NCBI RefSeq assembly: GCF_964204645.1
Contig: NC_134026.1
Span: 22,834,650-22,898,649, forward strand
Direction: 5' to 3'
DNA: 64,000 nt
Origin: Tubulanus polymorphus
Lineage: Eukaryota; Nemertea; Palaeonemertea; Tubulaniformes; Tubulanidae
The position numbers and the translations under genes were made by a program. The notes under the pieces were generated by a model. That model had not been told where the DNA came from. It made no database searches and saw nothing but the letters and a program-made list of their open reading frames with translations. Below, piece by piece: positions 1-57,222 of the stretch; the stretch's first letter is position 1, and each line of letters begins with the position of its first letter.

Positions 1-98
1 TAAAATGGTATGGAAATTTGGATATGTAGAATTATTCTATTATATATCGGTTGTCAGATTCATAGTTATTCAGATTTGTTTCTTTTGTTCTATCTCAG

Positions 99-9432: not shown

Positions 9433-9447
9433 GCGAGAAGATACTGT

Positions 9448-9518: not shown

Positions 9519-9519
9519 T

Positions 9520-22430: not shown

Positions 22431-22470
22431 ATGGCGGATACCAAAGGGCACATTCATAGTCAGAATATAG
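22431..22470 (+). CDS. Weak candidate first coding exon (MADTKGHIHSQNI, phase 1)
   Basis: The ATG has a near-ideal context (A at -3, G at +4) and opens 13 codons, followed by a G and a GTTAGA donor. The break is after the first base of a codon, as in the stronger alternative first exons further right. The donor is weaker than the others. An acceptor-like CACTTCTAG lies about 30 bases upstream, so it could be exon 2 behind a noncoding exon ending at 21765. Confidence 0.3.
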
Positions 22471-23656
22471 GTTAGAAAATCCTGATAGTGTATAAATAAT
22501 TTACAATAGTTCGAAAAATTCTAAAGAATTGCTTAAAATTGACTCAATCATCAAATTTTTCATTTTATAAGTGATGATGATGTTTACTGTCTTAAAACAT
22601 TGTATAATTATTCTCGTCAATAAATGATGTTTCCACATGCCCATCGCATGAAATGATAGCCCATTCAAGAACAATAATGTATAGAATAAACGGATGAAGT
22701 AACCGATATTGTCTAATATTGATCACTCGGAATAACAGTATCATACATTGTTAGTTGCTAATTAGCAACCTGCAAGACCTCCCCAGATATTTGTTTCATC
22801 CAAATGATTCAATTATCGTCATATGAATTTAACCATGAACTCTAATTTAGCGAGCAGTTATTTCTAAGTGGAAATGTTGTGTTATGATGTTGTGCATATT
22901 TTTTTTCAAAATACACGTGTAATTACATTTAATCTTATTAAATTGTCCTCATAAATGACGCTTATTTCTACATCTCTATACATGGTAGTTCAAATTTTCA
23001 TTGATTCATGTCATGAGTATTTGTCAAAATATTTATTTACAAGTTGCTATAGTTCATTAATAGCTCCAAAACAATCCACTGAAAATATTCAAAATGATTT
23101 TATATTATAGGTTTGAATTGTATCTGCTGAATTGATTGCCTCGCCGCGCATTCAGTGGTATTTCACAAACAACCGAAAGTGCTTTTTTATGCCTAATAAC
23201 ATCCATTTGGTCAGGAATACGCCTCATGCTGGTGAATGGTTTATCATCAATTCATTACATATTTTATCTGTATCACTTGCAGTGATGATTGGATGAATAG
23301 CTCATGATGTTACTAAATGCCTACATTGATTTTATGTTACCGACATTTTTTTGAACGTAATAAACTCTACTTAGCAAACGGTTTTTCTACTATGATAATA
23401 ATTACACGCTCAATAGTGGTATAGTAGCATACATACACATTCTATCCAGTACTCTCAACTTGGGCAATAAACTATTGCATTAGCTCGGCTCCTGGCTGCT
23501 GCGTAAGTCTGCCGATCAAGGCATTCGATGTGACAACTGTATCAGTTATTCCATAAAAACGGCATCAACTCGCGAAAGCGATAAATTTCTAGGAACAAGC
23601 GTTCACCGGCGGTGCCAGCTATTCCTTGCATTCGTGTTAGATCTATCTCAGGGGCC
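22471..23656 (+). other. Noncoding, probable intron and promoter of the exon at 23657
   Basis: No coding exon is seen. CpGs become more frequent after about 23140 (TCGCCGCGC), which would suit a promoter for the following first exon. A GTAAGT donor-like site lies at about 23503. Confidence 0.3.
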
Positions 23657-23909
23657 ATGCGTGAGGATAACAGTGGTAAACACACGACCCCAGTTTGGAC
23701 CGTGTCGACTTCAGATTCCAAATCGGACATGTCGTCGAAAAAGGTCATCACCGTTTCGCCACCGCCAAGTCCAAAGAAATTGAAGAAATTATCATGTTTC
23801 GCGCAGGTCTTCAATCACTTCATGCATCGGATTCGTAAAAGAAAGAAACGTGGCTCGATATTTGGACTACTTCGAGGAAAACCGGCATCTGTCGGTTCAG
23901 CAACTTCAG
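23657..23909 (+). CDS. Alternative first coding exon A (84 residues, basic, Ser/Pro-rich), phase 1
   Basis: The ATG sits in GGGGCCATGC. The frame stays open for 84 codons and ends with one extra G before GTAATT. The residues include a Ser/Thr-rich stretch (TVSTSDSKSDMSSKK), a Pro box (VSPPPSPKKLKKL, a possible proline-directed phosphosite) and a very basic segment (HRIRKRKKRGSIFGLLRGK). The frame is open upstream for about 24 codons but without another ATG. GC content and codon pattern are exon-like against the AT-rich surroundings. The product is unknown by itself. I infer it is one of several N-termini of a single large gene; the CACNB hypothesis is given under findings. Confidence 0.6.
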
Positions 23910-26900
23910 GTAATTCATTCTTTTATTGTTAGATGAGTCAAAAATGAGACTGCTCTATTGTTCCGTTTGATGGACATCTCAAAAGAACTTCTGATAGCTC
24001 AGCGATTGAGATGTGGAGAGCGCATATCTATGGATCATAGCATACGACATATTAATATCTTATTGCCAATTTTCTTCTTTCGTCTTGCATCGATTTCAAG
24101 ATATTAGGTTCCGGCTTTTCCTTTTTATCATATCGCTAATTGATTCTAAATTCTTTCATACATAAAGAAATTGCATTGGAGTACTTCGTCTCATATTTAT
24201 GTGAAGGATATCTCATGTGATGGATGGGTTTTAATTTCCACATATTTAAATGAATGCAATGCGAGATATATGTTTAATCATACATACACAGAAATTACAT
24301 AGAGATTAATGATCCTTGGAGACCTTTCGATGCGAAAACATATCGCTACTCGATGCAGCTTGATGCTGTCGTTTTTTTTTCACAGTGTAGTTTATATTGC
24401 TAAGTGCTTTTTTGCATCTTAGCCAAGCTGAGAAGGTTCAAGCTCTCGAGGATGTTGATGTTGAATATTTATGAACCTTTCATCATGAACATTCATTATA
24501 TCGCAGACGCCTATTGAATCTGGCTGATTGTGGATTTCAGAGTATTTTTTGTTCACCGATTTCTATCGGATTGCTTTTTTTGAGAGTCTGCAGGACGAAT
24601 GAATGTGTTATCACCGTACTGTTCATTGCTGCTTGCATATTAGAAAGTGAGAATTTCCAGGTAGAGTATCAATCAAAGTCTTGCCGCTGTGGCAATGTCG
24701 TTACGACTTCTTGACACTAGACCAAGGTCAACATAGAGTGGTTGAAATGAAAAATTAATGATATTATTTTTGTAGTTGTGAGATGTTAACTTGATCGCTA
24801 CATGTGCGAGGGTAAAATTGTATAACATAGATCCTGATTGAATGATAGGAGGGATCATTTGATTATCTAGATCAGGAAAGGGAAATTAGTTCGCATTTCT
24901 GCGCTGGTGAAACCCCCTGACAAAAATTCATGTTCCCTGATACGTTAAATATCAAATCATTCAACTTAAGACCTGTCTGACTTATGGATTATGAATCTTT
25001 GATTACCAACTTGCGAAGCGACCTAGACAGATTCACATTTTTCACAGAAAGTCCAATTGATCTGGTGTTGGTTAATTCATTGCTCTTTTCAGGGCTCTTT
25101 TCCAATTTTTGCTAGTCCTGTTAATAAATTAATTGACCTACTACGGAGGATTTATGTTTTTCATGGAACCATCCATTCATTGGGAATATCCCTAAATTGA
25201 ATTACTTCATTCATTAGCTCCCCAAGTTGTATTCATGCCGAAGCGATGTGTTGTGAGATGGATTCTAGAAGCTTGATCGCTTCTGACAGCCTATCATATC
25301 AAGCCCATCGTTTTTCGCCTTACCCTTAATCCCTGCAGAACAAATGTAAGGCGTAATTGTTCCATATATTCTGTCTCTTTAATTCATTAGACAATACTGC
25401 CGTTTAGTGGCCCAGATTGCTGATACAAGGACTCATATTTTTTGTGCTTAATTAGCCAAATGGCTCTCATTGGACATCCGAGTAACCAACTCATCTGCTT
25501 GTTTGGCGGTAATGTTTTTATTTTTTCGAGGATAGCAACTTAAATAGAAGTAATTTTCTTCGTAATGCAATTTTTCAATTACGGCGAGCATGGGAGCCTG
25601 AATGAATCGTTAGATTAATGATTTTATCTGTGAAACAACGTATATGTGTATGTTGAACTCAAAATAGTCAGTAGAATGGTGCATAGTACATTGCCTCATG
25701 GCCTAGAGGTTGGCGGGGCTAGGGTTGTCCAGATTTACGGCATGGCTTACGATGGTGGCACAACGATCTGTCATTGATTGAAGGATGACTGGATTAGAAT
25801 ATATTTGGAATGTACACTCCAAGATCTCCCAAATCACTGAACTATATCTCTGCAGAATGCTGGTAATCCTGGTTGTACTCCCAAGTTTATCTCACTTCTG
25901 AGCTAAATGTATAGGGTCATTACACTGCCAGAAATTGTCAATGTCAATGATAAGATGATACACGAACATCAGATATCCTTTATTTTACAGGGCCTGTGAA
26001 TTTTAATGCTCAGAAGTTCCTCCTTCTGTGAAAACAGGCCATTTTTTGCTAGACAAATGCAGGCGACGGTAACAATAGTGACCAAAGGAGCAAAGGAAAC
26101 AAACTATTTTATAATCTCTAATCTCCATGTTTTTCCCATACATATTTATGTATTTATGCATATATTGTTTTTTTTTCTGTGCTCTAAGCTTTAAGTTTCT
26201 TTCGTTTAGCAGATAAAGTACTTCTGATTCTAATTCAGTGATCTGTACAAATATGACGAAAAGATTACTAACTAGCTTAATCCATCAAATCAATCAGGCT
26301 AATTTGTTTCTATTGTTCGTGTTTGGCATCTATCTCCTGAGAACTCTATTGAGTATGCAGTGTAAATGATCAACATGAGTTCAATCCACTCACGATATTT
26401 GGAGGAGATTTGATGGATAGCTGGAATGGATTGGTCCGATTGAATTGCGCCATCATTTGCAAGCCATGAATCAAACTTATCCCGGTATGCAGGGTCCCAA
26501 TACTGAATAAAAACCTTGCTATTCATATCCATCCTTGTGAATCAGGTTTATCTCATAGATTTATTACACGATTTTTTATCATGATGGTATGGAACAGGGT
26601 TTAAGGCATTTCCTTCAACTCAAACTATCTATTTATCTATTCTATGAAGTAGTCTATGAACAATACATACTATAAAACTGATAAATCAGCGCTGATAAAT
26701 GAGACCAATGTGGCTAATATTTGACATGATGGTTACTGCTATATCTTGATGGATGGGAATTCAAGATTGGTTCATATGAAGATTGCAAAAGGAAATAGCC
26801 GAGCAGGCGGTTAATTTGATTGTATCAGATATAATAAGATGTTGCTGTATTCAATGGGAAATAAGAAATTTGTGTAAACCTATGTTCAATGTATTCCGCA

Positions 26901-28660
26901 TTCGCACATTCGAAGAATCCCTAAATGCTTAAATCTTCTCTCTGTATTCACTCTGGAGAGAAAATTGCCTCCCGTTGGCCACCGTTACGGTGAAATTTCA
27001 TAAAGATTCAGCGCAGGTAGTCACATTGACATGACGTTTGACAAATGAGTTGTCATAACCTACTTGTCTCAAAGGATGGATTTATTTCAGAGAGCGGGTC
27101 CTCAACTTAAAAGTGAGAAGCTACTAAATACCTGAACGTATTCCAAATGAAAGAACAACATGCACTTTTCCGTTTGTTAACAGCCATATCAATATCTTCA
27201 GACTTATTTTTGTCTTGGTATCTTCAGAAAACACAAACAGCTTACTTTTTTTTGGATATACAGTATTATGAAATTATTAATTGAGTTCCAGTAAACAATT
27301 TTCAATGCTAAATTACTTAATGCACCTACATGTCAGATTTAATCAAATGTTTGTTTCACCGGTGTGCAGTCATTCATGCAGATTTTATCTCGTCGTATAA
27401 ATGAAGCATACCTGGTATGCCTTTCATGCACTAAAAAATGGATGCATTTTCCTATGCACTCGACGCAAGTACCAGAACCTTGCTAGGCCTATATTGATTG
27501 CGTGGGTTCATTTCTGGAAAAATGCTCATTAGCCAATTTCTGTGTCCTTGCGCTCTGATGCAAAGTGGAATTGTGAAGCTGATCTGAACTTGTTGAACTA
27601 TCATTAATTGGTCTTTCATATGAGACCTGCTTTTTCAATGATACTGATTGCTTTTTCATGCACACAAATTATTTCGCATTCATTCTTGTATATCTGCCTA
27701 CAGTTATTGCAGTCCATTGAAATGACTTAATGACTTAACCATCGAGATCCTTTTTGAATACGTTTTAATGAACAGAGGTCTTCACACCATGTTGAGGGGA
27801 AAATGGCTCTAATCGATCTGTTCCATTTCTCTATAGTACTTCAACTTTCCACGAGTGTTTCACGATGGAATTTATGAATGTCATTGGTAGTATAGGTTGA
27901 GTATAATTTCAAGCTCTTCATATATTTCTATCCGAAGATCTTAAATGTCTTAACCATCATTAGCTAGATGTCAGAATGCTAAATTATGACTGCTGAAATG
28001 TACTGGTAAATCATGTTTTAACTTCTTCAGTATTTTAAACACAAAAAATGTACGATTTTCGTAATGGTTTGCTTTTTTATGCTCTACACAAATTTGATAA
28101 GTTTAGGTTCTTGACACCATATTTCTTTTATATAACCTATATTTATATAACCTTTTATATAACCTTTTATATGGCCTATATCAACATAAAAGCTTGCAAT
28201 GTCCATCAGATATTACATGTTGATCCTGATGTGACAGATCAAATAAGGTTCGGTCCCCACTGCGGAAGTCATCTGGATAAAGAGATATTGATATAACCAT
28301 ATCATAATATATTTTTTCACTTTCTGTCCTGGGTGAGAGAAACCAAGTGAGAAAACAGAAGAAATGCATGTGATTCTGGCTGAAGATTTGACAGTGTTTA
28401 TCTGATCACTTTAATTGTACTCATTTCTTTAGACAAGTCGATAGCGCATATCCATTTACAGTTAGAGACAGATCTACCAACATTTTATTAGCGTGCTGTT
28501 TGTTTATAGCCATTTCTGATGGTTTGATACACCAGTTGTCCGACGGAGGCTGGATCTTCGGGATGACTGACAACAGCTGAAGAAGCAAGGAGAGATCGCA
28601 TAATTGCGAGTAAATTGTTGACAGAGGTAATCCAAGTATAACAGGCACTATCTTCACTGC
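23910..28660 (+). other. Long intron, no exon recognised
   Basis: AT-rich sequence with no ORF supported on either strand. Open stretches such as 24514-24714 and 26532-26299 (-) lack motifs and splice support. Confidence 0.4.
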
Positions 28661-28684
28661 TGGCACTATAGTGACAGACCCGTA

Positions 28685-28880
28685 GCGTGAATGATTTTAT
28701 GGGCAGTTCGTTTTCCTTATTATGCAAACCTTTTTGCTGCACCCTAAGACAGTGCTTGAAGGTAAGACATCTGCTCGTGATGGCAAATAATAAGGCAATT
28801 CAAGGCTTTCTATGCAGTCTAGTGCCAGTCTGAAGTATAGTACCTGAAGGCCTATAAAACCTGGAGTGGCGTAAAGGACA
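28685..28880. repeat. Dispersed noncoding repeat, copy 2
   Basis: Second copy of the family described at 16230-16470, sharing GATTTTATGGGC, the TTTTCCTT run, GATGGCAAATAA, CAATTCAAGGC and GTGCCAGTC in the same order and strand. It is followed by a long C homopolymer. Confidence 0.6.
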
Positions 28881-28964
28881 AGCCCAGAATTTTATTCAAT
28901 TTCTGTAAATCCACTTTTCAAAAGCGAACCATTTTCTAATTTGAGTGTCCCCCAAGTACCGCAT

Positions 28965-28982
28965 CCCCCCCCCCCCCCCCCC
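28965..28982 (+). repeat. C homopolymer, 18 bases
   Basis: Uninterrupted run of 18 C on +. Its length may be unreliable in the assembly. Confidence 0.9.
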
Positions 28983-29639
28983 GTGACCAAACAAAAGGTA
29001 AATACAGCACTAGTACAATTTTGACCAATATCTTAGAGCTTCATTCATCATTTTTTACTCACTACAAACCAGCCTCTGCATAAAATGTCATATAACAAGA
29101 CGTACTGACGCAATGCTTTGATGTAAGAGGTTATTACTGGTAGTAATTCTGCCATATAGCTTATCTACTCATTTAATTTACTATTATTGCATTAGAGTAC
29201 TTGGTTTGAGATGAATTGATCAACATATTTGATTTGGGACATAAAACGCCGACATATTCGGAATTAAACGACAGGTTTGGGAATAACGACGTTGGCAATA
29301 TTGAGATTGTGTGAAATGATACCCGCTGAATACATGTGTATGGCAATATTATTAACCATAAACTTAATAATATGACAACTACGGCTGCTGGTGTGCACCT
29401 GAACCTGCATCCTTGAGGAATGTACTCAATTGTTGATTAATATTACTGTGAAGATGATGTTCTTGTCTCATTCCTCGGTTGCCTATCACTATACGGGCAA
29501 GCATTGTGCTATACCACACAGAATTGTTATTGCAGTCTCATTAAAACACTATACAATTTTCTGGACTTCTATCGTTGAAACATATCAAAACTTATGCTGC
29601 ACCCCTAGGTCTGCGTGGTGGTCAGTGTGTTAGGTTTCT

Positions 29640-30070
29640 TATTAACACTACAGACCTAGACCTCAATGTTTGACCTATCGTCTTTAGATTTGGATATATT
29701 TTGTATGACCAAAAAATCTGGGACGAGTTCAATATTTGTAGTGGGGGGACCCAAGATGGTCGATTGGTAGCAAACTTGGTTTCTGAAATTGCATATTTTG
29801 GCTATTAACTGATATACTATTCCATGTAGGGCTTTTATTTTTCATATGAGAATGTGAAATAGAAAGCTTTATCATATGACCATACTTGAAAATCATGTCA
29901 TCCAATATGCTTGACTGGCAGCCATCTTTAATTCTGAAATTATACAATTTGGTCATCATCTCAAGTTTTCCAGATAAAGCTTTGATATTTCAAATGAATA
30001 TGTCAACTTGCATGACCTATGAAATGAACAAGCTAGGTCATGATATCCAAGATGGTCAACTGTGACTTAC
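29640..30070. repeat. Dispersed AAGATGG-type noncoding repeat
   Basis: Contains CCAAGATGGTCGATTGG at 29752 and CCAAGATGGTCAACTGTG near 30048, with a GCAGCCATCTTTAATTC between them in inverse orientation. The phrase set matches other noncoding repeats in the window (10600-10990, 19440-20010, 46200-46740). The left boundary is uncertain. Confidence 0.45.
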
Positions 30071-31219
30071 TAAGCCTGCTTGGTCAGGTGTTGAGTGAAG
30101 TCACAGTAGAATCGCATCTTGTATTTACGAGTTTCATATAATGAAATAGAAATTTATTCATTGAAACATCATTATGATTTATCATGAATACTGAATGAAA
30201 AATTTTATTTTCCTGTAACACGTTCAGAACAGCTTTCATTTGCAATGTTTTATATTTCATATAAAATGCCACAGGTTTATCGCTATTGGTGTGTCATAAA
30301 AGCCTATTGTGGACCTGTACATGTTTGTGTGTTTGGTACCGTTGCTGCAAAAGTATACCCTATCACCATGGCAGTACATTTTGTGTCTGCAAAGTATGTC
30401 CGGTATGCTATGTATTTGATATATTTTGCTGCAAACAAATATCACTGGGAATAAAGAGTGCCATTCGGGAATGATTCATTTATGGGAAATCCTCTTTCTA
30501 ATACTGGTCCTATTATTCACCGGGCTACTTAATGGTGCATATTGGCCCAGACTGTCAGTGGTATACATACACTCATTCCGAAGGATAATCTACTACTATC
30601 TGTTAATAGGGTTACTGAGATGGGTTCTAGTAATACATAGCATCTCCTAAATACTAAAAGCAAACAAAAATATTTACTTGGTTGTTGGCAATACTGTTAT
30701 ACCTCCAATTATCTATCATTAGTTATATTTTAGGTTTCTAATAAGGGATGAACTCACTTCGGTAATTGCTATTTTGATATAAATATTTCCAGATCGTGTT
30801 CAGATCTGGTGAGCTTAAGTTACGACTTATTTTCCGTGCAATCCACTCCAACACATTGTTGACTGCGGTACTGAGTTGCAGCAGCGATGTATGAAATCCA
30901 GGAACTATCAATGTATAAGCGTGCTAAGTCGGTTTGACCAAATGAAATCTCGTGCTGTTGCAAATATAGCATAAGTGAAATCGATTAGGAATCAACAGTG
31001 TGTGTCGATCCAATCTTTCTCTTATATCAGTGTTTTACCATATTCATTTCATCATGAAAGTGATTTTTACACAACATTCATGGCTGTAATTCCTTTCCAC
31101 AAAGATCAAATTGGAAGCGATCATTATTGTTTTGGTAGAATCTTCGGGAAGGGAAATATGGTGTGTTGTCAGAATAAACATTTATGGATCAGTAATGATT
31201 GAATATTAATGTACTTTGT

Positions 31220-31311
31220 CCAGTTCCACAGTTCTGAGTTAAGATTAAACTCTGAGTCAACTCATCGAAAATGAACTAACTTTAATTCACAACTCACAAC
31301 TGTGGAACTGG
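31220..31311. repeat. Fold-back element with about 31-nt arms
   Basis: Starts CCAGTTCCACAGTTCTGAGT and ends with the inverse (ACTCACAACTGTGGAACTGG). The arms pair over about 31 positions with few mismatches, leaving a loop of about 30 nt. It is probably a tiny MITE. The hairpin would fit an RNA structure too, but no mature-microRNA sequence is recognised. Confidence 0.7.
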
Positions 31312-34238
31312 GTCCTAGTGAAGAAGCGTAAAATAGATGAGCTTGTTCTGATACGTATGTGAATATTTCTTGAATATTTCTTGAATCAACCTTGAAAAAT
31401 CTTCTATTTACTGTCTTAAGCTATTCAGAGTGCAATTTTCAGAGTGTAATTTTCAGAGTGGAACATGTCGAAGCATGTTAGATTTTGATTTGCTTTCCTC
31501 GGCTTACTGCATTCCAATCTTTGCTTCAAGACATTAACGCTGATACCCAAATAGCTATACATCTAAGAGAACTCCAATGTTTCTAACTCTATTTCATGAT
31601 TTTGTAACATAAAGGCTAGAACACTTGTTTTTTTTCGGTGCTGAAATATTAGGCATATTTTGAATGAAGTGTTTCGTACAATTTTTTCATTCATGTTTCT
31701 CAAATCTCTAGTGTAGAAACTGCCTAACACTTCAGTGCACTGAATTTGATATCACGATAAACTGGTCCATCTGTCTCTTCGAGAATGGCTTGGCATAACC
31801 GGCCCTAACGTCTTTAGCATTGCTCAATACTCATTACAGAATTCAAAATTCATTACCATCTTTACCGTCTTTAACGAGCATCTTGAGATCGCATTCCAGC
31901 TCACTGTTCTGTCCGAGTAACATTACTTATTAACACTTGTCTCATGGTTTATTGAACTATCTATGTGAGCTGGTGACTATCTCAATTCCCTTCCTCGGTT
32001 GATAATAATTAATCATATAGATTTCCCCTGAAAAAGTTATTTCGAAAACGGTTGGCGACTCATATTGTGTAAAGAGTTTGTTGATATTTTTATAGTACGT
32101 CGCGTAATACGAAATTGAAGGTTTAAAAGAAGTGAAGAAACAATATTTGATTCAAAAATTCAAAATTTCAAAAAATGTATTCATATTTTACTGTGGAACA
32201 CCATAAGGATATCATGAGCATACAAACTGTAGTGTAGGTTAAGAAACAAAATGATTTGACAAAGAAAACAAAATTGGTACCGAGAAATGTGCTTCCCCAA
32301 TGAAGATTATCAGGGTCCGAGGGTGAATTCTTGTAAAATATCGAATTTGAAACAACAGAATGGAAACATTTATAACCTTTTTTGGGGGACAAGGCATTGG
32401 CAGTTCCACATATATAATTCTGACATGAGACGAAAATCAAAGTGACTTCTTAATGAAGCTGACACTTTGTCTCAATGCAGCCACGTAATTGCCACTTCTG
32501 CCATCTAACAACAATCAATGAAATCTGCGATATATTTTCATAGGGATGGATGTTCTGTCAATTATGTACGCCCTTATGTATTTGTGCATGGTCGTATTTT
32601 CAACGCGGGCTGTCAGCTAGCTCATCTAGTTCCATTGGACAGGTTGAAATGTCATGGAAAAAAGTTGTTGAGTCAGAAAAGATGATTTCTCTGAATTGTT
32701 ATGATAATCCCTGATATTCTCGAATTATTGCACAGAATAGTTGGCGCTATAAAGTCTTTGCCTGATATTAGTTTTTAGACAAAAGTCAATGCATATGCGG
32801 AAAAATTTTTTCATTACATCACGCCAGAATGTAGCATTAAGTTGAAATGCAACTTTTTAGATGTTTATTTGAAATGTTTCATATTGTGAATTAGATGGAA
32901 ACACATGAAGCCTCAAGTCCTGATGAGGAAATGATGTGTGAATGCCTTCTCACTTCTTATCGATTAGTTATATTTTGTTTTGATTATTAGATGCATTACA
33001 TCGCGACATCAGCTACTGATATAGTGCTGCCACCCAGTATGTTGCGCAGTTACTAACTAGCTACATTTTGTTCAGATCGATTCAATTACTCGAATATAGA
33101 TCTGTTTTTATGAATACATTTGACCATTAAACAATTAAAGCTTTTTTCCTGACATAAGGGGGTAATTCCTGGGGAAACTATGCATTAAATTTGTATTCTA
33201 GATTAAGAAAGTGGAACTTGTATGTATATGATATGCTACGATGGAAACCCAATATCTTGTGCAAACATTGGAAAAATCTTTATCTATACAGTCTTATTTA
33301 GTCAGCAATCTGCTATAGGATTCAATGACCATTTCCATCGCACAATTACATATATATATTGCACTTGGATGTGATTCGAAAGTCCAAAAGACTATCCAAC
33401 TCAGTTTGAGATCAGTAAAACTTTGGTTTGGGGTAGAAATCCTCAAAGCAAGATATTTCTTCAATTCTAATTATTCATTTTTTGCATCATGGCGGTGAGG
33501 TGTCTGCCTTTTTCATCATGAAATTCGTTTTTCTTAAAACAAAATAATTATTATTACTATGTCTGGATTTTAGTGTGTTTTCAACATTCAGTTGATTCAG
33601 TTTTCACATGAGTCTATTTTACATGATGCATAGATATAAGTTGCTTTCACACTATCAGTAGTTAGACTGTTCCAAAGGTCCATACCTGCAACAGACCAAG
33701 TCAGAGTGTGTGTTCACATGCGCATTGCTAAATTGGCTACAGATAGTTCTGACTTGTCCCGCAAGATGTCGCCATGAGTATTTTACCCCAAAATTTATAT
33801 CTAAATGATAGATTTGTGAATCCCTAGCTGTTACTTTTTTGAAAATTTTACAGTTTATCATATATCTGGACAATCTATTGGTAAATTTTAGGACATTTCC
33901 AAAACATCAAAACGATATATACTCTGCAAGCAACGCACACAATAGACAGATCTTAAGATACGTATAATTCTGTTGAATTAGGCAATATAGAAATTATGAA
34001 ATTTCAAAAAAACTATTAATCAGCTTGATGATAATTTGGTGACGAATTTATTACAATTGTATGGTGAATATGCCTGAGATGAAATGAATAAATACATATG
34101 ATATAAAGGGCCCCAAAACAAACGTGTTGTAACCATGTAATGACTGATCAATTTTGGAATAGTTTCATTCACCATTGATTATGTCTATTTATTTCTTTTC
34201 ATAAAATGCAATGCTAACTAAATACGACCTTTTTTAAG

Positions 34239-34253
34239 ATGATTGCTGTACAG
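34239..34253 (+). other. Candidate 15-nt microexon or recursive splice point
   Basis: TGCTAACTAAA (a very good branch-point string) is followed by ACCTTTTTTAAG, then 15 nt (ATGATTGCTGTACAG), then the donor GTAAGAA. Fifteen is a multiple of three. Read in phase 1, as every first exon upstream would demand, it is open (D-D-C-C-T). It is not proven to be transcribed. Confidence 0.3.
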
Positions 34254-36028: not shown

Positions 36029-36348
36029 TGAGCAAGTGGTGTGGGCAAGTCGTTAGAGCCAGGTCTTGGGTTCGAACCCCTGTACATGACCGTATAGTGT
36101 CCCCGGGCAAGACACTTATCCTTATTGGCTCTCTTCACCCAGGAATAAATGGGAACCTGGTCTGATAGATGACTCCTGATCGCCTAGCAGCTGCTAGGGG
36201 ATATTACTGCTCCCCAGGGAACTGATAAATGGTTAGAGTTTATAGGCTGGGGGTGATAATACCAATTTAATGGTGGAATGCGCCATTGAACATTGTAGCA
36301 CAGTGAAAAGGGTGCTATATAAATTAAATTTCTATTACTAAATTACTA
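36029..36348 (+). mobile_element. tRNA-derived SINE
   Basis: A pol III B-box GGTTCGAACCCC lies at 36069-36080, about 40 bases into the element. A conserved-looking body follows (GTGTCCCCGGGCAAGACACT, TTCACCCAGGAATAAATGGG, GCTATATAAAT near the 3' end) and the tail is AT-rich. A possible 8-bp target duplication TCAAAACT flanks it (36021-36028, 36349-36356). The body phrases resemble those widespread in SINEs of marine invertebrates. The family assignment is from memory. Confidence 0.75.
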
Positions 36349-38432: not shown

Positions 38433-38475
38433 ATGGATGACGTTGAAAGTGAATATTCGTCATCCTATTCATCAG
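38433..38475 (+). CDS. Alternative first coding exon B (short acidic MDDVESEYSSSYSS), phase 1
   Basis: The ATG in GGCCCATGG opens 14 codons. One G and the strong donor GTAAGC follow (cut after 38475). The peptide is acidic and Ser/Tyr-rich. Codon break and final G are identical to exons A, C, D and E. Short acidic N-termini of this kind are known for one CaV beta class (human CACNB3 starts with a short Asp/Glu/Tyr-rich segment), which is the basis of the identity hypothesis. Confidence 0.6.
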
Positions 38476-45569: not shown

Positions 45570-45623
45570 GTAAGCCTTTTTTAGGGTGGTGGTAATTTTC
45601 AGTTATGGATCAAACTTATTTTG
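45570..45623 (+). CDS. Candidate recursive-splicing exon / alternative first exon C (MDQTYF), phase 1
   Basis: A strong acceptor (CTCTTTCTTATATTTTCAG) ends at 45569 and is immediately followed by a donor-like GTAAGC. A second strong donor GTGAGT begins at 45624, so the exon is exactly 54 nt. Read on from any phase-1 upstream exon it hits TAA at 45593-45595. An internal ATG at 45605 gives MDQTYF plus a G, again phase 1. A second acceptor (GGTAATTTTCAG, ending at 45602) would give a 21-nt exon 45603-45623 that is open in phase 1. No transcript evidence is available. Confidence 0.4.
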
Positions 45624-46199
45624 GTGAGTTCGACGTATTTTTTGTGGTTGTTTCTAAAGCACTAGCGTTAGAAATTCTCTAAAACTTCAGAAAATGAGTG
45701 AGACGCATTCTTTTAGGAAAAGTCGAATCTTGAATTTTTAAATATTATATTTGTTTTGAACGAAGGCCGAGGTCCCTGATGCTATACAATTTCCTCAGAC
45801 GCTAATGTTCATTATACACAGGAATTTCTAGAATTTGTATGGTAACAAATAATATTTCAATAGATGGTACTATTTATAACATATCTGTATATATCATCAT
45901 TTTGTGAATTCACAATTCTCAGTCTATATTTTCCCAGCGATCTGGGGATGTTGTTGCGTGTGTGATAATGACTTCATGGTATTCACTTGAAGACTACTTC
46001 TTGACATAGATGATACGCACTACTGACACTTGTTGCATTTTCTCATCAAATTTTCATGCATACATACATTATACGCAGCCTTTCATTTCGTGTATAATCA
46101 TTAAGTGACAGCAGCTACATTGGTGAAATCTTGCATTTATCGTATGGTTCATTTGTATCCTAAACCATAGGATAAATAATAAACCAGTCAATATTAAAG

Positions 46200-46740
46200 G
46201 GTTAACGGATAAAATATCAGCCTGTGCCAATTCAAAAATAGGGGTCCAGGATCTTCAACCTTGAAAGTTGCCATAATCATTGAACATGTCAAGAGATATG
46301 ATTTTGCAATTTATTGCAACAAAACATGCATAGCCCTGATGCATAGGTACAAGTATAAGACAAACTGTATAAAAATCTTTAACTCCCCCTGGTGGTGAGA
46401 ACAAAAAAATTGATTATCCCAATTCCATGAAAGGAGATGTGTTGAATGACAATACTAACAGTTTTCAACCATAACCACTCCAGAGCTATAGACTCTTAAT
46501 TCAGGCCAAAAGTAAAGTTTTTGGGCATAAAAATGGGTCGCTCGGACACAAGATGGCAGTCCTGTGACCTTTCTTGTGCCCGATCGACCCGATCTTTTTC
46601 TAGATGACGGGACCTATATGATATATTCGGGGTTGAAATCATTGATTTCTGGTGAAGGTTATATATCAACCATGTACTGTGCTGGCTGGTGTATGTGATA
46701 CAAATATTAATTGACATTTGAAACAATCAATTGATTCTTA
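46200..46740. repeat. Dispersed noncoding repeat, relative of the PGM3 intron copy
   Basis: Shares GGGTCCAGG, CCTTGAAAGTTGCCATAATC, AACATGTCA and TTTGGGCATAAAAATGG with 19440-20010, plus an ACAAGATGGCAGTCC phrase. No ORF and no terminal repeats are seen. Confidence 0.6.
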
Positions 46741-46865
46741 GGCTCCTGTATTGATATGAGGATAGCAGTATGTGATGATGGTACCTTTGGTACATGTACG
46801 TTATAGTCTATAACCAAAGATATGCTACTTTAGCTTATTTTCAAGAATGAGAAGGTTAGGTATTT

Positions 46866-47110
46866 GCCGCGATCATGCAAGCATTTAGCCCGTGCTAAAT
46901 TTGGTTGACCAAAAACGTTAGACCAGCCCCGAGCCAAATTTTGGGACGGGTTAAATCATTGCGTGTGATTTGCAATTGGTTCCGGAAGTGACTCACTTCA
47001 CTTTGTTTAAGCATTTAGTATCGACTGAGCGGTCTTTGCGTGCTAGATTTGACTCGGGCCTGATCTGTGCCATTTTAGCCCGGGTCAAACCGTGGCCATG
47101 TGATCGTGGC
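46866..47110. mobile_element. Possible MITE with imperfect inverted ends
   Basis: The 5' end starts GCCGCGATCATGCAAGC. The 3' end finishes GCCATGTGATCGTGGC, whose inverse begins GCCACGATCACATGGC. Further in, CCCGTGCTAAA is mirrored by TTTAGCCCGGG. The element is about 245 bp without an ORF. Target duplication is not evident, so the superfamily is not assigned. Confidence 0.4.
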
Positions 47111-50100
47111 TAATGGTAGTCAGCTTATGCAGTCAGCCTGATAAAACCTACATTCAGATCTACCAGGTATTCTTGCACCTGGCAGGAAGGCAAATAGACT
47201 GGCACCATTTTCTCACTTGCTGGTGACATTATCTATCTTTGTTGAAGTACCAAATATTGTATATAATTTCGCTGAAACTCGGCTTTTTTGGACTACGTAA
47301 TGGACTGGTTACAATCAGAATACCTCAATTGACAGATCATTCGGTCAAAATATATTCGAACCGAAAATTTCATATGGTATTAAATTTTGTGTATAAAATT
47401 CATTAATAAAAAAATATGGAAAAACTATGCGATAAAAGTCATCGGTTGTTGGGCTAATATTTAAGTAATAACATTTTCTGATTGTAAAAGGATGTTGAAA
47501 AAGTACTGTTTTCAATCTTTAAATAGAACTCAAGATTTGTCTTCGTGAAAAAATTACAAATATCTTTTCGGCTATCACAGTGTTTATCACTAACTCTTAA
47601 CAATAGCACAATACGTAGAATTCCCTCACTTTTGAATTTCAATTCATTTTCTCGTGAATCAATTAGCAGCAGTTGTATACGCAAGGTGGCGGCACTATCT
47701 GGCAATGCTAGATTTTGACAATTCAATTCAATCGATATCTTATTGTACAAAATTTGTAGATATGTCAAAAATAAATCTCGCAAGGAAATCGTAGGAAAAT
47801 GAGAATAATTTTACAACTTGACAGCGTAGTAGAATGATTCAAATTGATGACCCTTAATCCTCATCTAGCTGTTCCAAAAACAGTGTGATCGGTGATTGCT
47901 GCTGGGCCAAAACGGCACAAATACATCGATCAAGACAAGATCACAACTTAGATATCCCCCCCGGCCCATTTGGCAACTATATGTAAAAACAGATTTGAAT
48001 TTATTGAGTAAAATAGTGTCAGGTGCTCCCCATGGTGATAATATTTCAAGAAGCCTCTTTTAGGGTTTTAGGGGTAAGTTTTACATTTCAAATCAGTAAA
48101 TTATTGTAGAATGTACCTATGTATTTGTTATTTAAAACGAGTTCTCTATCTGGACACAAAAGGGAAATGTCAATGAAATGAAGGAGGATGTCATCAATTG
48201 TCGAGTGCATTTTGTGTAATTCTGTTTTCAAACTTCAGCTTATTTTCAGTATTTTCTTACAGTCAATCATGATAGATCGATAGATAGGTAATCAGCCATT
48301 CGTCATGATTTCTCTTGTCAGATCTATTAAGCTATTTTTACATCGATTCGATTGTTGCTCGATATCTGGTTGATGTCATCTGTCATTCGATGAGCTACAT
48401 GAATTGAAAACTCTTTGATTTTTTTTCAACCTGTTTTTCTATAGTAACTTAGGAACTATTTATCAAATGATGTGCAAGTTGTTGCTTAAGAGTATTGTCT
48501 TTTCGCTAATTACGGCTGGAAATAGTCCTCAGTAGTGGGAGTAATCTGATATATGATAAGCATCGCAGTACCCGCTTCTATTATGAGGTGCTGCCAATAT
48601 TTCAAGCTGTGGTAGATTTCTGAACTACTGCCTGCCGTATTCTTCCTAAGAATTTGCACGGATTCAGTCATCCCTATCTCTGCTCATTGCATTTCAGTTG
48701 GTATTGCCCTCAGTGACTTGTGGATTGTTTAGAAAGCATCTCATTTATAGATCCATGCTAATCCCAAGTGGGAAGTTGATTAGTTTACTGTTGGTAACCG
48801 AAATACTACTGAAAGATGTTACAGCGTAGCAAATGCAATTTTCCTCTACCTAGTCTTGATTTTTTTACCTAGGTTTTATTCCTTATTTTTTTTCTCAAAT
48901 CTTTTTCACATTTAAGAGCTTGAAGTGTGACCTCCTTGCTGATATATTATGCACTTCTTCACAATGGTCATGGTCTAGGTACCAATCATTCAATTTATCT
49001 CGGAAAATCCTGCAGTTATTGACTTTTTTGCACACTGGTCACGTCAATAAGTTCTTGTTGATAATGATTTATTCTATATGCATTTATAGATACTGGCACA
49101 TTTATTGCAGGGCTGAACATGAGGATTATGATGCCGAATTTATGTCTTTCCAGAATAACATTCCTTTTTGACATCCTCCCCTGGTAGTGTTCTTATTACT
49201 ACAGTTATATTTTTCTGATTATTGGCAAAACTGTCTTGTGAATAATGGTGCTTTTATCGTGGATGTGTTAAGATAAAGGCCTGGTTTCATGCTATATTTG
49301 TCATTTATATGCTATTAACCATATGCTATCACTGTATATCTTGGTACAAACAAATAGGTTTACAGCATTTAATATTTCAGGAACATCATTTTAAGTTATG
49401 TGCTCATTTTGTAGAATGCATTTTTGAATTGATGAGATGCACTTCGCAAATAAAAATGCCACGATATGAAAATCTAAAAAAAAAATGATTAAAAAAATAC
49501 CGAATTGATGAAATGTGAGAGTTGTTTTCAGTTAGAGTGTTATGCTGAACAGCAAACACTTATTGTATAAATGTTTCGTGTCATATCACATTTTATGAAC
49601 ATTTTGTGTTTTGAAAAATGGCCTTGTGCAAACACTTATTGTACATAATTCTCCAAAGGGAATTTAGATGTCTGGTTGAATTGCAACTGGCTAGCTAAAT
49701 AACTTCATTGAATTAGTTCTGCCAAATTACTTTATATCCAATGCTTTAGCTTTCGTTATCTATGCTGAACTGCGAGCATGTTCCTATTCAATTTCACCCC
49801 TGAGGATTCATTTTTTTGTCGAATCGACTGGAAACAGTGTTTCCTATAGCAACAGCCATTGTGTCTCAGGAGATGACTATCAGTTATATTCTATACAAAC
49901 TTATCTTTTTGTTCACATATAAACACCATGTATGTGCATATATATTTCAATAATGAGTTTTCGTATCTTTTGATTCATTACAACTTTTGTATGAGCATTT
50001 TTGCCTATGTATGTATGTATGTATGTATTGATGTGACCCAGGAAATATAAACAATTATAGGTAAAATGATAATATTCTACGAGCCTAACGACGAAGTATG

Positions 50101-50929
50101 TTTTATGTTTATCCTCAACAAGTTGAAATATATTATACTTCACATATTGTAAAATTCATTGTGGCTATGATCATGAGAATCATCGATGGTGAGAATTGAA
50201 GATTTTGTGTTCTTATGCTTGAACACTTATATCGCTTGAACGCTAAGATTTGCAGAAAGATGGCATCCTAGTATGTGGTGCACTTCTGCTGACGTTCACA
50301 TAATATCTTGGATGGTGACTGTCCCAGTGCGTTATGACTATACATCAAATATTCTTAGCTTTTTTATCTTTAGTCTTTAGTAGGTTTCTTTTTTTTACAT
50401 TTTTTTCACCGACGTCAGATCAAAGTCATTACGTATTTCATCATGTATCTGACCCCTTTTCTCTGGAGAATGCAATTGTTTCATATAAACTGCGGCTGTG
50501 TTTTCAGCCATCAGGCCCATTGCTATTCAGGCAATGCGTGTTCCTGTCAGAAAAATTGCATCACATAATTTGATGGTCACTATTAACGATTTTACAGTCT
50601 ACACAGGACCAATAAATGTATAGTTCCACAATTTTTACAGGACCACAATGAGCTATATATGATCATGAAGTGGCATTATTGATGAGAAACACAAAATGGT
50701 ATCCATCTCAACTATCGGCGACTTTCGAGTTGATAGTACATTTAATTAATGTCTTTTTGTCAACCAAAACTTAAAGGCAATAATGTATACTTCAAACTTG
50801 TTTGAACATTTTAAAATATTTTTCTATTGCGAGTTACAATGTTCTGTCATCCTGTATCATATTTGTTCTCACATTCGCGGTGTAAAAATCGATTGGTTAG
50901 CCATATTTAGTATTGAATAGTTTGCACTT

Positions 50930-51480
50930 GCTCGTTCGCTCACGCGCTTACCCTCTTCGATCCGATTTGTGCATTAAAAATACAGATCCGCCTGCCGCAT
51001 CGATGATAGTGCTGAATTATGCAAGACAGGTGTTCATATGAGTAGTATTGTAAAGTTAACGATTCTATAGGTGATGGCTCTGATACCGATCTGCTAGCTA
51101 GCAGGCGGTGCGCTTCTAGTAATCTCACGGTACTCGGGAGGTAGTCGCGAGTTCGTGGTGTGAGTGGTAAATTCAAATATACTCCGCATGTTCACTAACA
51201 CACACGTGTTCACTACGCATGCACTTGGCAGTCAATGTGTAATAATTGCTCGTCAAAACTGAAATTCTTCAGACTTTTTTTAATGGTTTTTGTCGCTGCA
51301 ACATCGAAGTCCTCATTAATTCAGGTTTTATCTCGTTGATGACTGACAAAGGATGATAACAATATTGGGAGTGAATAATTTACCAATTACTAAGGACGCG
51401 CTGTTGCGCCGGTTTCTAGTAGTACGAACATCATAGAATCTCGGTTTGATTTTTAGCGCAAAAAAGTGCAACCCGCAATA
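50930..51480. promoter_or_regulatory. CpG-richer patch upstream of first exon D
   Basis: Higher CG frequency than the flanks (TCGTTCGCTCACGCGC, CCGCATCGATG, GGACGCGC). It lies 0.5-1 kb before the ATG at 51981 and may include promoter or 5' UTR sequence. Open frames here on both strands have no recognisable motif. Confidence 0.3.
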
Positions 51481-51685
51481 TGCTCGCTTCAGTTTCATTG
51501 ACGATTGTCATCGGAGTCTAGATATTTTCTGTTACGAATTATGAATTTGTTTGAATTATAGAATCAGGATGACCACCGCTATATTCTAATTCACCGTGAA
51601 CAGCATCTGGTGTATGTAAATCGTGTGGTTTTATTGAATAGTTAGAATCCACGCAGAATTCAGTAAACTTGGTGACTGTATCGCT

Positions 51686-51753
51686 GATTGTGAATTGTTC
51701 TCTACTGAAATCTGGCTACGATTGTGAATTGTTCTCTACTGAAATCTGGCTAC
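51686..51753 (+). repeat. 34-bp perfect tandem duplication
   Basis: GATTGTGAATTGTTCTCTAC and the following 14 bases occur twice back to back (51686-51719, 51720-51753), identical. It lies about 230 bases before the ATG of first exon D. Confidence 0.9.
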
Positions 51754-51879
51754 TCTTCGTGACTGGTTCTATTGTTTTAGCCTCATGTATTGTTACGCGA
51801 ATGTTGCTTAATGTATGTGTACCTAGTTGCCGGATGTACTTTGATATGAATGATACGATGACATTAGCCGTTAAATGAT

Positions 51880-51935
51880 AACAAGTCAATTGGATTATCG
51901 ATATAAATAACAAGTCAATTGGATTATCGATATAA
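51880..51935 (+). promoter_or_regulatory. 29-bp-period duplication with CCAAT-type and TATCGATA boxes
   Basis: AACAAGTCAATTGGATTATC and the next seven bases are repeated with a 29-bp period (51880-51906, 51909-51935). Each copy carries ATTGG (inverse CCAAT) and TATCGATA (51896-51903, 51925-51932), a string known as the DRE core-promoter element in flies. The copies lie 46-101 bases before the ATG at 51981, where a core promoter would be expected. Confidence 0.5.
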
Positions 51936-51980
51936 AACGTGCAGTTTGATTACGCTTGAGTTGGAGACAATAAACACAAG

Positions 51981-52131
51981 ATGGATATGCTTGGAGGGGG
52001 TGGTGGAGGTGGGCCGGGAACGAAGAAGAAAAAGGAGGTATTGACCACTGGTATCCCCGTGTTGGATCGGTTTCGTGCCAAATACAAGTGCTGTTTCGTA
52101 GAGTGGGCTGTTCTCTGCTTTTGTGCGCCAG
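51981..52131 (+). CDS. Alternative first coding exon D (50 residues, Gly/Lys start, Cys-rich end), phase 1
   Basis: The ATG in CACAAGATGG (A at -3, G at +4) opens 50 codons. One G and the donor GTAAAG follow. The residues are a glycine run (MDMLGGGGGGGPG), a lysine cluster (TKKKKE), then LDRFRAKYKCCFVEWAVLCF ending CAP. Four Cys in the last 15 residues next to basic and hydrophobic residues suggest S-palmitoylation and membrane anchoring. The N-terminus of mammalian CACNB2a is likewise Cys-palmitoylated. The break after codon base 1 (G) matches exons A, B, C and E. Confidence 0.6.
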
Positions 52132-55100
52132 GTAAAGTAACAAGTCTTGTTAATTGTGCTGATGCCTTCTGAGTACTTGCCATCGGTCAAGAATGACTTC
52201 AAACACTCTGATATTGAAATAGTCGTACGCATGTTTTATCATGTTATGTACATATGTACTTTCTTTATAATTGATCTCTATCTTTTATGAATTGATTTTT
52301 CTGAAAATATCATTAGATGTTTAGATGTTTTAGAAACGCTGTGAATGATTGCATCAGGCAGCGGGGTTCTAAACACCATATTGCTACTGTTCTAGTATTT
52401 GGATAGGGTGTCATCTGCTCATTAACTGGCAAGAATATCTCTGATTTGAATTGGTTACATACGATTCGTTTAGGAAGCATGGACTCTAAATCGTTTTACT
52501 AATAACGATGTCGTCGTACAAATATCCTGAAAACTCTAGAGAGAAAGTCAGTTGTATTGAATGGATCAATTGGCAGATAATGCATCATAGACAATGTGTT
52601 GTCCCATAAGAAGATATGTATTATTAAATGTACATCAATGATGGCAGTCGAGTTAGATTGGCAGAAAACTTGACAAATAGAATCTGAACACATAGCCAAT
52701 TTATGACAGATGTGCAGGTGACATATTTTATTGTTGAGAATATGCTTTATGATGAAAAAACTATTACCAAAGTCTCCACAATCCTTCCCCGTGGTCCCAC
52801 TGACAGTTTGCTGGATAAAGTTATATCAGGAGATACAAGAACTTCCTTTTACAAGAATTTCCTTTTATTGCTGTGCTGTGACAGCAAACGAGGAACATGA
52901 TATGTCATGAAGACGCTTATGAATTTTTGATGATATTGATAATGATAATTATACCTTGCGTAACAGGAAGCTTTCACACGCAATAGGGTTTCAAATGCCG
53001 CTTCAATTTTTGCTATAGTAGTTGCGCAGTCTGAATTCATTTTTCTGGGCATTTTTATTTTCAAATTTTTGGAAGCCTTTCAGTGATGCGCAGATCTATT
53101 TGTTACCTGTACACCATTTCAGCTGTTTGCGTTACTTCATTTTTTATCAGAAATGTTCATTTATAATCCATTCAGCTGATCAATTGACACAAATATTTAC
53201 ACGCAGGTCGACTGTACGGATATTTCGACCTGATGATATTTCGAACTGATGATCATACGATGTAGCACATGTCAATTTTGTATTTATACGTAAATTAAAA
53301 CATCTGCAGCTGAACAACTTAGCTTTCGAATGACAGCTACTATTTAAATACTATAGATACTTTTGGTCATGTGGATTGTGTACAAGTACTGATTTCCCAG
53401 TTTCAAGCCCCGCCCCAGGCTGTATGTTGCATTTTACCATTTCATTTCAATACTGAGAGTTGACAGCCATGCTGTTATGATTTTCTTTTGTTATTGCAAT
53501 ATCCGGTCGATTTGGTTTGGCTGTAATAGATCCGACTTTATTGATCTATTATGTCGTTAGTGCATTTGCCAACTTATGATAAATCATAAATATTAAAATC
53601 ATCTATACCAGCATTGGTGTTTATGGCACTGGTCAATTGTATATATGCCAAGCTATTAAAAGTTCTGGCACACAGTTTCCAAGGCCACAGTAATTCTCAG
53701 TTCCATCAGTAGATTAGTTGCAATGTGCACTGAATTTTTTATTGATGCATCACGGGCTTGATTAACTACATCCAAAATGTGAATACCAAGCAAATCTTTC
53801 AGAAAAATGCAAATGACACATATTGTTGCAATTCTGTGAATTTTCTGATTATCTTTCATTCATTCAGGAGTGAAGAATTTGTCACCGACCCCTTTGTATT
53901 TGCCACATTATAACAGTCTTCACAATCCGCCCCCAAGTACTTCAAAATCAAACACATTTACACATGTTTCTGTATCAGAATATATTGTAGAATATATCAT
54001 ATACTCATTATATTACACCAAATTCACATTCAGGAAATAGTGAAGAAAGGTTTTCGTTTCTTATGGGTAACAATTTGGGTGTTACCCATTGGATTATCGA
54101 TTTCATGGTGTTATATCGGACAGCAACTCTATTAAACCTCAACTGTACAGTATCGGAGATGCAATATGTGCTGCACATAGAAATCCCATTAGTCAAATTA
54201 TACAAAGCTCCATATTCAGTGGTGTGTCATCTTTGAAGAAATACAAGATTTCACGTTCGTACCTTGGAGGGATTATCATTGGACATTGATTGGACAGTCA
54301 TGGGAAATGTCCTTGCAACTGAAACTGGAGTATTCATTGACTCGAAGAAATCCTATCGTCTTCAATAACTATTCAGACCTGTCGCCTACCTATAGTGACA
54401 CCTGAACGTGATCTGCTATTATTTTGAAATGTGAACAAAATCATACAGGCTTCATTCCTCTCGGATAACTCATTGCCTACTAGAAGAGATGTACCATAAT
54501 TTTGTGAATGTCACATCAAAGTGTTTGTTTACAACGACGAAACACAATTTTGTAATTGTCAGGAAGGCTGATGTACAGCTTATTGATAAGTTACTCGGTT
54601 AGATACGTAATTTGTCATATATTACGTTGGAGAGTTTTCTCGTTATTTTTAACATATCTGTCATCATTTTAGTTACAGTGGCGCTTCATTTCTCTTTGTT
54701 AGCTCTGATCATGACGTTGAAGTGACGGATCGTTACCGAGGTTATTTCGATGAATTAATCCATTTCATTTGCTGCCAGTATGAATGAAAACATTGAAAGA
54801 CAGTCACTGACTGGTTGTCAGGTGTAGTTGGGGTTTAATCGGTGTAACACATCGTTGTAACTTTTGCAGATTGTTTGGTTATAATGATATGCTATTAAGA
54901 GATTATGCAGGGGATAATCTTATATTTGGTTGTTATTGAGATACACTTCATACAGTGTGCGCCGTTCCCTGGAGACCTTGTTGAGTGTGATACAGCCTGA
55001 AATTCTTGAAGAATTTTTTCAACCTGGAGGATTGTGACAGGTGGTATGTCCACCACAGGGTGGCCATCTTGAATTTCTTGTTAGTATGATACAACCCGCA

Positions 55101-57134
55101 CTGGACTTGAACCAACAATTATTACTAAGTTTATGAACTAAACTCCGCTGTTTTTTATCGAGTATGGAATAAGTTACCTCTCTTGAATTCCTTGTCTCTC
55201 AACTGTTTGCATAGCCCGAGGGACATGGGGTGTTTCTCTGGGGAAACATTGTAAGAAAAACGTTTTCATTGTTATAATATCGCATGAAAAATATTTTCAT
55301 TATTATAAATATCCCCCTGATTTTTGTACGTCAATGCGCAGAGTTTTCTCTGCTCTCAGCACCTGGCTCCACAATAAACTGATCTGATTTCGAAACCAAA
55401 TTATTCGAATTGCACATTCTGCATAATAATTGACAGCTGTTCATTATCATCTAGCAATTTCAATGACTGACTTCCCACAGTCCAGCTGCTTGACTTTATT
55501 CAACAATGTGCATTCGATTTTTTTATTTCATTCTAAAGCCGGAGGACCAGGTATTTGACAACAGTTACGCATTATGACGGTGTGACCTTATTAACTTCCT
55601 GAATTCAATTGTAAGCTTGAGAGGTAATCCACAGCAAATCTGCAAGTATTCATATTCATAAAACCAACTTGTGATCCTGCCAATGAAACAGCATATAACT
55701 CACGAACACAACCTTATTTAGAACAGTCTAAATTTGATCTGTTCCAATTTAGAATGAACCAAGCGTTCACACTGGTAAAGAATTGACCAATTCCTCTGAC
55801 CTAAAATTGCAATCCAGTTCTTCTAAATCATATTTATTGGAACGGATCATTTCTTCGTGTATGAGCAGAAACTGGTTCTATATTGAATTGTGATTCGGCG
55901 CGCTAATGTCGCAATCACCTACTGTTTTACTTCCGGAATAGAATAGAACAGATTTACCCCCTGGTATACTGGAGTCAGCTCATCTATTGGCGGTCCGCAG
56001 GCACAATCTTGTTTGGAAATTTCCTCTTGAACTACTCTGTAACTTAGCACAAATGGCTGTTTTGATTTGTAGTGGCACCTATGTTTTATTTTGTGATATA
56101 TATGGTTTGGACAATGCTAAATTGGTCTGTTCCAGGTACGAACCAATTTAGAATGAACTTACTAGATATAATGCCAACGAACGCGGCTTAATTGATTGAT
56201 ATTTGCAAGCCTTCAGTTTTGCTTTCACATTACTTGTACATCAAACGAAGTTGCTGTCAGCCGAATTCTATTCAATTGCAGTATTTTCATTTATCTATAG
56301 ATAGTGATGCCGGGTTTTTGCACTCGGTGATTGATTGATGATCTATCCAGGGAATACAAACCGCAGAAATAAATCACGTTTACTTCAGAACGGGTACCTT
56401 TGCATTGACAGCCTAATTTTTGTCACAAGGTCTCCTGATCCTGTGGTGTTGGTTTCAGTACTATCGATGTTTGACCTTTGTCCTAAGTTTGTGTCGTGAG
56501 AATGTTTCTATATTTTCACCGCAATCTGATTTGTATGAACACTCGGCAGTCCTATATTTGTTTGAAAGTCGTTTCCGACGTGTTAGGTTTACTTTCAGAC
56601 ATTAATCCGATGATATCTGAGCGATTTACAATACTGACGCACAGTTTTCCCTAGACGTGATGATGGTTACGTCCGCCAATTAAAACCATCCATCACAAAT
56701 GTCCTTCAGTGCCTTTGCTCTTTTGCCTATTCAGCTGCTCGTTGCCAATAACCTTTACATCTGAACGATCAGCAAGAAATAGAAAATGTTCTTTTTTCAC
56801 GAATCACTCAGGTTTATGTTTGTTTATTCGACAAAAAGAGTGTTGAAGGTTTTTATTACTGAAACCGTGTTGTTTTCGAAACTACTCTACCCCTGTGCAG
56901 TTCCACATGTTCTTTTATCGCACCATTCACCTAGGACCTTGTTTTATTTAGACCCAGTCCGAATCTGTTTATTCGAATTGAAACCTTGGGATTCCAACGA
57001 TCATATTTCGCCTCGGTCATGCCAATTTTCCCCGAATTCTGGCATGCTGATTTCAGATGCTTTTTCACGGTACGTGTAATTCAGTTTCACGTTCAGGGTA
57101 ATTGAGATACCAAGTTTATTTTCAGTAGTTGTAA
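52132..57134 (+). other. Long intron, mostly featureless
   Basis: No exon is recognised. It contains a GTGGCCATCTTGAAT phrase near 55061 (inverse of the AAGATGGCC family) and the direct repeat at 55744/56143. The 97-residue open frame at 56786-57079 has no motif. Confidence 0.4.
55744..56158. repeat. Direct repeat pair about 400 bp apart
   Basis: CCAATTTAGAATGAAC occurs at 55744-55759 and 56143-56158. Each copy is preceded by a TAAATT...TCTGTTCCA string. This may mark the ends of a degenerate element or a local duplication. Confidence 0.45.
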
Positions 57135-57222
57135 ATGGCGTCGGCATTAATTCTGAGAAAATGCGAGCCAAAACAGATAGTAGGCATCGCTATTCCTTTA
57201 ATGACTGTTAAAACACTTACCG
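57135..57222 (+). CDS. Alternative first coding exon E (29 residues, hydrophobic), phase 1
   Basis: An ATG followed by GCG opens 29 codons (MASALILRKCEPKQIVGIAI then PLMTVKTLT), then one G and the strong donor GTAAGC. The frame is identical to the other alternative first exons. There is a single Cys near a basic residue. No signal-peptide cleavage pattern is convincing. The frame reads on into the intron, where a random extension stops at 57338. Confidence 0.5.

Follow-up and report, generated by a model that had tools for sequence, protein, structure and literature searches.

Mammalian KChIPs are encoded by four genes, KCNIP1-4, in which common core exons lie behind several alternative 5' exons that give rise to variable N-termini, according to one review (PMC3973911). 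The same review links the choice of N-terminus to whether a KChIP anchors to the membrane and to how Kv4 traffic and gating respond, describes invertebrate KChIPs as frequently myristoylated, and considers the transmembrane exons to have probably been kept from an ancestral gene; a 2014 review gives the S-palmitoylated motif a later origin. In the dog, KCNIP4 has at least five transcripts that start from alternative first exons (PMC7012447).

The locus described here may have the same layout, a common EF-hand core and candidate alternative 5' exons (here known from sequence), whereas the mammals have four KChIP genes and a single one was found here. The window, that is, the whole stretch of 64,000 nucleotides under analysis, corresponds to positions 22834650-22898649 (plus strand) of contig C2 (NC_134026.1), and we consider it quite likely that its contents include the beginning of one KChIP gene (KCNIP-type) that makes several N-terminal variants on one core. 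Such a gene would produce several proteins that have the calcium-binding EF-hand core in common and differ only at the N-terminus, which would be set by the first coding exon in use. If the mammalian proteins are a guide, the N-terminus of the Kv4 channel would be clamped by the core, and the variable N-terminus would decide membrane attachment and Kv4 trafficking. We infer the transcription, splicing, promoters, lipidation and channel binding of the candidate isoforms.

The KChIP core

Besides the window, the analysis covered the next 120 kb, numbered in extended coordinates that run on to the right from 64001; adding 22834649 gives the contig position. A protein of the KChIP (Kv channel-interacting protein) family is encoded by six plus-strand exons between extended 139510 and 146004: 139510-139634, 141832-141901, 142070-142140, 142712-142924, 143087-143149 and 145957-146004, the last of them with the stop codon. 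They were located by a scan of codon usage and splice scores, with hand-set splice matrices, and join through canonical GT-AG sites into a single frame. In phmmer comparisons with PDB chains, for which the last exon was left out of the query, the core scored 277.5 bits against KChIP4 and 263.9 bits against calsenilin, as compared with 187.1 bits for NCS-1, 185.9 for hippocalcin and 135.5 for recoverin. Since these scores are nearer to the KChIPs than to the other three proteins, the core is assigned to the KChIP family; EF-hand_7, EF-hand_1 and other EF-hand families were found in it above the Pfam cut-off.

A search of the genome with the core returned 11 matching places, five of which are the exons of the KChIP locus itself. 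The best match outside the locus (C2:30469822, 53% identical) is hippocalcin-like and the one on contig C7 is an NCS-1-like stretch, so that neither represents a second KChIP, and no second KChIP gene was found among the three places classified, out of the six core matches outside the locus. Genes for calcium-channel beta subunits also have phase-1 first exons; this identity was considered for the gene and rejected, as the N-terminal domain of the beta subunit sits on another contig, C1.

The first common exon (139510-139634) opens with the dinucleotide GC, bases 2 and 3 of a codon split by the intron, followed by GAT GAG. A first exon that ends in G at phase 1 therefore completes a GGC codon (Gly) and reads on as DELDDLEM, which makes phase 1 obligatory for any usable first coding exon, and the single common acceptor accounts for the phase rule across the candidates. 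The original prediction, a single large gene whose common exon lies beyond 64 kb, is supported: the gene is the KChIP gene on the plus strand, and its acceptor exon fits the phase-1 G.

Candidate first exons and their background

Five ATG-led stretches, A to E, of 253, 43, 19, 151 and 88 nt, each have a final G and are followed by the donors GTAATT, GTAAGC, GTGAGT, GTAAAG and GTAAGC, respectively. Their coordinates, ATGs, donors, lengths and final G, as first reported, were all correct on re-reading, as was the phase 0 of the stretch 48032-48073; the weaker candidate reported at 22431 is likewise present (22431-22470, plus strand), with 40 nt and a poor donor (score 5.3), and is not supported. 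All five stretches splice in frame to the first common exon through GT-AG sites with an open frame, and the predicted proteins, core included, would have 280 (A), 210 (B), 202 (C), 246 (D) and 225 (E) amino acids.

Exon A (23657-23909, plus strand) comprises 253 nt, encoding 84 amino acids plus the split Gly, with a basic, Ser/Pro-rich N-terminus. It has a donor score of 8.8 and, even when excluded from the training set, a codon score of 18.0, giving it the highest coding score among the ATG-donor candidates; an acceptor-like site with a score of 6.8 ends at 23651. The exon A peptide had one chance match in PDB (E 0.34), and its comparisons with calsenilin, KChIP2 and KChIP4a were not significant. 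Exon D (51981-52131, plus strand) comprises 151 nt, encoding 50 amino acids plus the split Gly, and its codon score is ordinary (-0.4). Just upstream of it lie two exact tandem duplications, at window 51686-51753 and 51878-51936, with 34-bp and 29-bp units in two copies each and 100% matches.

Candidate B (38433-38475, plus strand; 43 nt) would encode an acidic/Ser-rich N-terminus and has a strong donor (11.6) and a codon score of -1.6. Candidate C (45603-45623, plus strand) can be read either as 19 nt from the ATG at 45605 or as a 21-nt phase 1-1 microexon from a TTTTCAG acceptor, with an acceptor score of 10.2 and a donor score of 9.0. Candidate E (57126-57222, plus strand) follows a TTTTCAG acceptor (10.2) that ends at 57125 and has its ATG at 57135, 88 nt from the end of the stretch, with a donor score of 10.2 and a codon score of -6.8; it would be a first coding exon, perhaps not the first exon of its transcript. 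None of the N-termini of A, D and E had a match in Pfam when searched alone. Two more ATG-led phase-1 stretches, both with donor scores of 12.7, lie between the window and the core at extended 107392-107434 and 117994-118051, and are possible additional first exons.

How often such stretches arise by chance was estimated in the region 14431-139500 (125 kb), with the rule that a stretch be in phase 1, end in G, have a donor score of at least 7.4 and measure at least 16 nt. The rule was satisfied by 34 donors on the plus strand (51 ATG-donor pairs) and by 15 on the minus strand (22 pairs), and phases 0 and 2 of the plus strand had 25 and 24 donors. Stretches from an ATG to a phase-1 donor are thus frequent by chance and show no more than a mild enrichment, and the five had been chosen from among them, so that five such stretches prove little. 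Exon A has a sum of donor and codon scores of 26.8; the next plus-strand stretch that does not overlap it reaches 14.1, and the highest value on the minus strand is 14.3. B (10.0), C (7.4), D (7.1) and E (3.4) fall within the background. Two of the five thus stand above the background, A by its coding score and D by its similarity to calsenilin.

Judging by these sequence features, exons A and D are most likely real, and B, C and E are candidates, so that the real alternative first exons number at least two, perhaps more. The figure of at least five first exons in the original prediction is unsupported as it was stated: A and D are well supported, and B, C and E are not.

It is close to an even bet, though slightly short of one, that just A and D, or fewer, are exons and that B, C and E are chance stretches picked by eye. 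In favour of such a reading are the 34 plus-strand and 15 minus-strand donors that satisfy the rule and the background-level scores of B, C and E, but C and E each stand behind a strong TTTTCAG acceptor, and acceptors with a score of at least 10 within 12 nt are found for only about 0.3-0.5% of ATGs; B has its strong donor. Within the 125 kb, C is the sole plus-strand pair of the microexon type (acceptor at least 9, donor at least 8.5, length 12-33 nt), and the minus strand has one.

Somewhat less probable, but still a serious competitor, is a gene with few promoters and many splice choices, in which the coding-start exons or cassettes would be preceded by non-coding 5' exons that they share, or by a leader added through trans-splicing. 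Acceptor-like sites with a score of at least 6.5 precede the ATG of A by 5 nt, that of C by 2 nt and that of E by 9 nt. Sites of this kind are present in 4 of the 51 plus-strand phase-1 pairs, as opposed to none in the other two plus-strand phases (0 of 32 pairs in phase 0, 0 of 34 in phase 2) and one in each phase of the minus strand (1 of 27, 1 of 22 and 1 of 26 pairs). The predicted starts of the Kv4 gene and of the HMG-CoA synthase-like gene (the latter at extended 152615) are also placed 8-9 nt behind an acceptor-looking AG. On these grounds A, C and E may be second exons, preceded by non-coding ones, or may receive a leader by trans-splicing, and the AG just before all of these starts hints at spliced-leader trans-splicing or introns in the 5'-UTR; C, as the 21-nt stretch 45603-45623 with phase 1 on both sides, is phase-neutral and may be a cassette microexon. 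Against this, no good acceptor is found near the ATG of B or that of D, chance alone places such an acceptor-like site before about 3-4% of ATGs, and searches with the nematode SL1 and a Ciona (tunicate) leader gave no match, one of the SL1 searches being without any control signal. The proposal that each first exon is driven by its own promoter is unsupported as it was stated, given the acceptor-like sites that precede three of the five ATGs.

Relation of the N-termini to known KChIPs

Exon D is the only candidate recognisably related to a mammalian N-terminus, among those of calsenilin, KChIP2, KChIP4a and one further peptide. When joined to the common exon, D scored 56.6 bits against calsenilin, in an alignment over residues 17-91, as compared with 40.9-42.7 bits against six other KChIP chains that hold the N-terminal part and 30.4 bits against a seventh, shorter chain. 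Cys37-Cys38 of D are aligned on Cys45-Cys46 of calsenilin, given as the palmitoylation sites of calsenilin/KChIP3 in PMC10377897. Compared with the calsenilin stretch, the D N-terminus had a score of 42, with shuffle p values of 0.0002, 0.0006 and 0.0008 (ten pairs were compared in the first set of shuffle tests and fifteen in the second), and its two rows rank first (42) among 1,980 ATG-donor candidates taken from both strands and all phases at a donor score of at least 3; the next candidate scored 31. The 51-residue N-terminus of D alone retrieved no calsenilin chain from PDB at E up to 10; the match emerges only where the core alignment runs on into D, and in the pairwise tests. A search of a phage collection with the D peptide gave no match and is not informative.

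The likeness to the KChIP3/calsenilin/DREAM N-terminus consists of a basic stretch and the Cys pair (KCCFVEW in D, RCCLIKW in calsenilin). D differs from KChIP3 by a start rich in Gly and Lys and by two additional Cys residues. By analogy with KChIP3, the D form is probably anchored to the membrane through palmitoylation of Cys37/Cys38.

No myristoylated and no transmembrane N-terminal type is visible among the five candidate exons. A Met-Gly start of the N-myristoylation type is present in none of the five, and putative MG-led phase-1 candidates lie further to the right. Candidate E shares shortness and a hydrophobic stretch with the tmKChIPs (KChIP2x, 3x, 4a), but its hydrophobicity is too low for the transmembrane type, for which a hydrophobic segment of about 19 residues would be expected (maximum KD 0.89, compared with 2.39 for KChIP4a), and as a transmembrane KChIP start it was rejected, with shuffle p values of 0.59-0.74 against KChIP4a. 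Its comparison with calsenilin gave nominal p values of 0.027-0.036, not significant once the number of comparisons was counted. In a search for a transmembrane-type exon with KChIP4a, no phase-1 plus-strand stretch was prominent, and the top score (36) was on the minus strand.

The assembly comprises 77 contigs and 267.8 Mb. Its protostome affinity is probable, given 12 mir-2 matches in the genome, 7 of them over the cut-off and most in two clusters (one control genome, a bacterium, had a match below the cut-off), and the protostome age listed for the mir-2 clusters of the fly in PMC3763532. Other checks found no COX1 match in the assembly (for the mitochondrial code), no telomeric arrays in eight 400-base contig ends, and no candidates for the arthropod cuticle family PF00379, with no control signal for that family either.

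That KChIP genes have alternative first exons is already known from mammals. What is new is a KChIP3-like first exon of the palmitoylation type, as predicted from sequence, in a probable protostome; in the open-licence literature, among the matches listed (e.g. the best 8 of 289), we found no earlier report of such an exon in a protostome. If a protostome does have a KChIP3-like first exon, this type of exon would date from before the split between protostomes and vertebrates, and the resemblance of D hints that the KChIP3-like start is much older than the vertebrates. We tentatively suggest, as a possibility that falls short of even odds, that a single KChIP gene was already present in the last ancestor shared by these two groups and that its several alternative first exons included a palmitoylation exon of the KChIP3 type. 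If so, the four vertebrate genes would have divided an inherited set of N-terminal variants among them, and the origin of the S-palmitoylated type would lie far earlier than the 2014 review proposes. A first exon with this Cys pair in a protostome makes that dating testable by comparison of first exons across invertebrate genomes.

Distance to the core, neighbouring genes and the channel partner

The candidates lie 82-116 kb from the core, with 82 kb between the last of them, E, and the core, and about 122 kb from exon A to the stop codon. This distance is large for a genome of 268 Mb and counts against the single-gene reading. The rest of the window (57223-64000, plus strand) would be part of the long intron that leads to the core exons. 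Within it, a 146-bp unit forms a tandem array of 5.3 copies at window 58411-59183.

Between 24 and 139 kb, coding scans, which are insensitive to short exons, recognised no other plus-strand coding gene. The first of them, which had exon A in its training set (removed for the later codon scores), found no segment with a score of at least 11 on either strand from 23.9 to 153 kb; it says little on short exons, because the KChIP core exons were also below 11 and were missed. A Pfam search of the plus strand of 3 of the 12 downstream 10-kb pieces gave one match, below its cut-off. Exons of an intervening other gene could be missed by both kinds of scan. Even so, it is improbable that the candidates come from different genes or non-coding transcripts never joined to the KChIP core, as the very long distance and the blindness of the scans to a gene of short exons would allow, given that no such gene was recognised, that the phases fit and that D resembles a KChIP N-terminus.

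The N-terminus of Kv4 is the part bound by KChIPs. Two Shal-type Kv4 N-termini were found over the cut-off in the genome, at C3:12445733 and C3:12447486, about 1.7 kb apart, and one of them was translated; the usual partner of KChIPs is therefore present. These N-termini (C3:12445733-12447566) belong either to two Kv4 genes in tandem or to a single one with alternative first exons.

An Rfam search of the window at gathering thresholds gave no match. To the left of the candidates, the window contains a WD40 repeat gene (74-1199, plus strand), a Dor1-like family gene (5777-6121, minus strand) that we take to be COG8, a rhodopsin-type receptor (9433-10179, plus strand) whose Pfam match is below its cut-off, and an MFS transporter with a Pfam match (11339-14418, plus strand), presumably of the SLC17 type. 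The next gene to the right of the KChIP core, at extended 152.6 kb, is presumably an HMG-CoA synthase-like gene, and further right, at extended ~160-180 kb, lies what we take to be an apolipophorin-like gene, both named from their translations.
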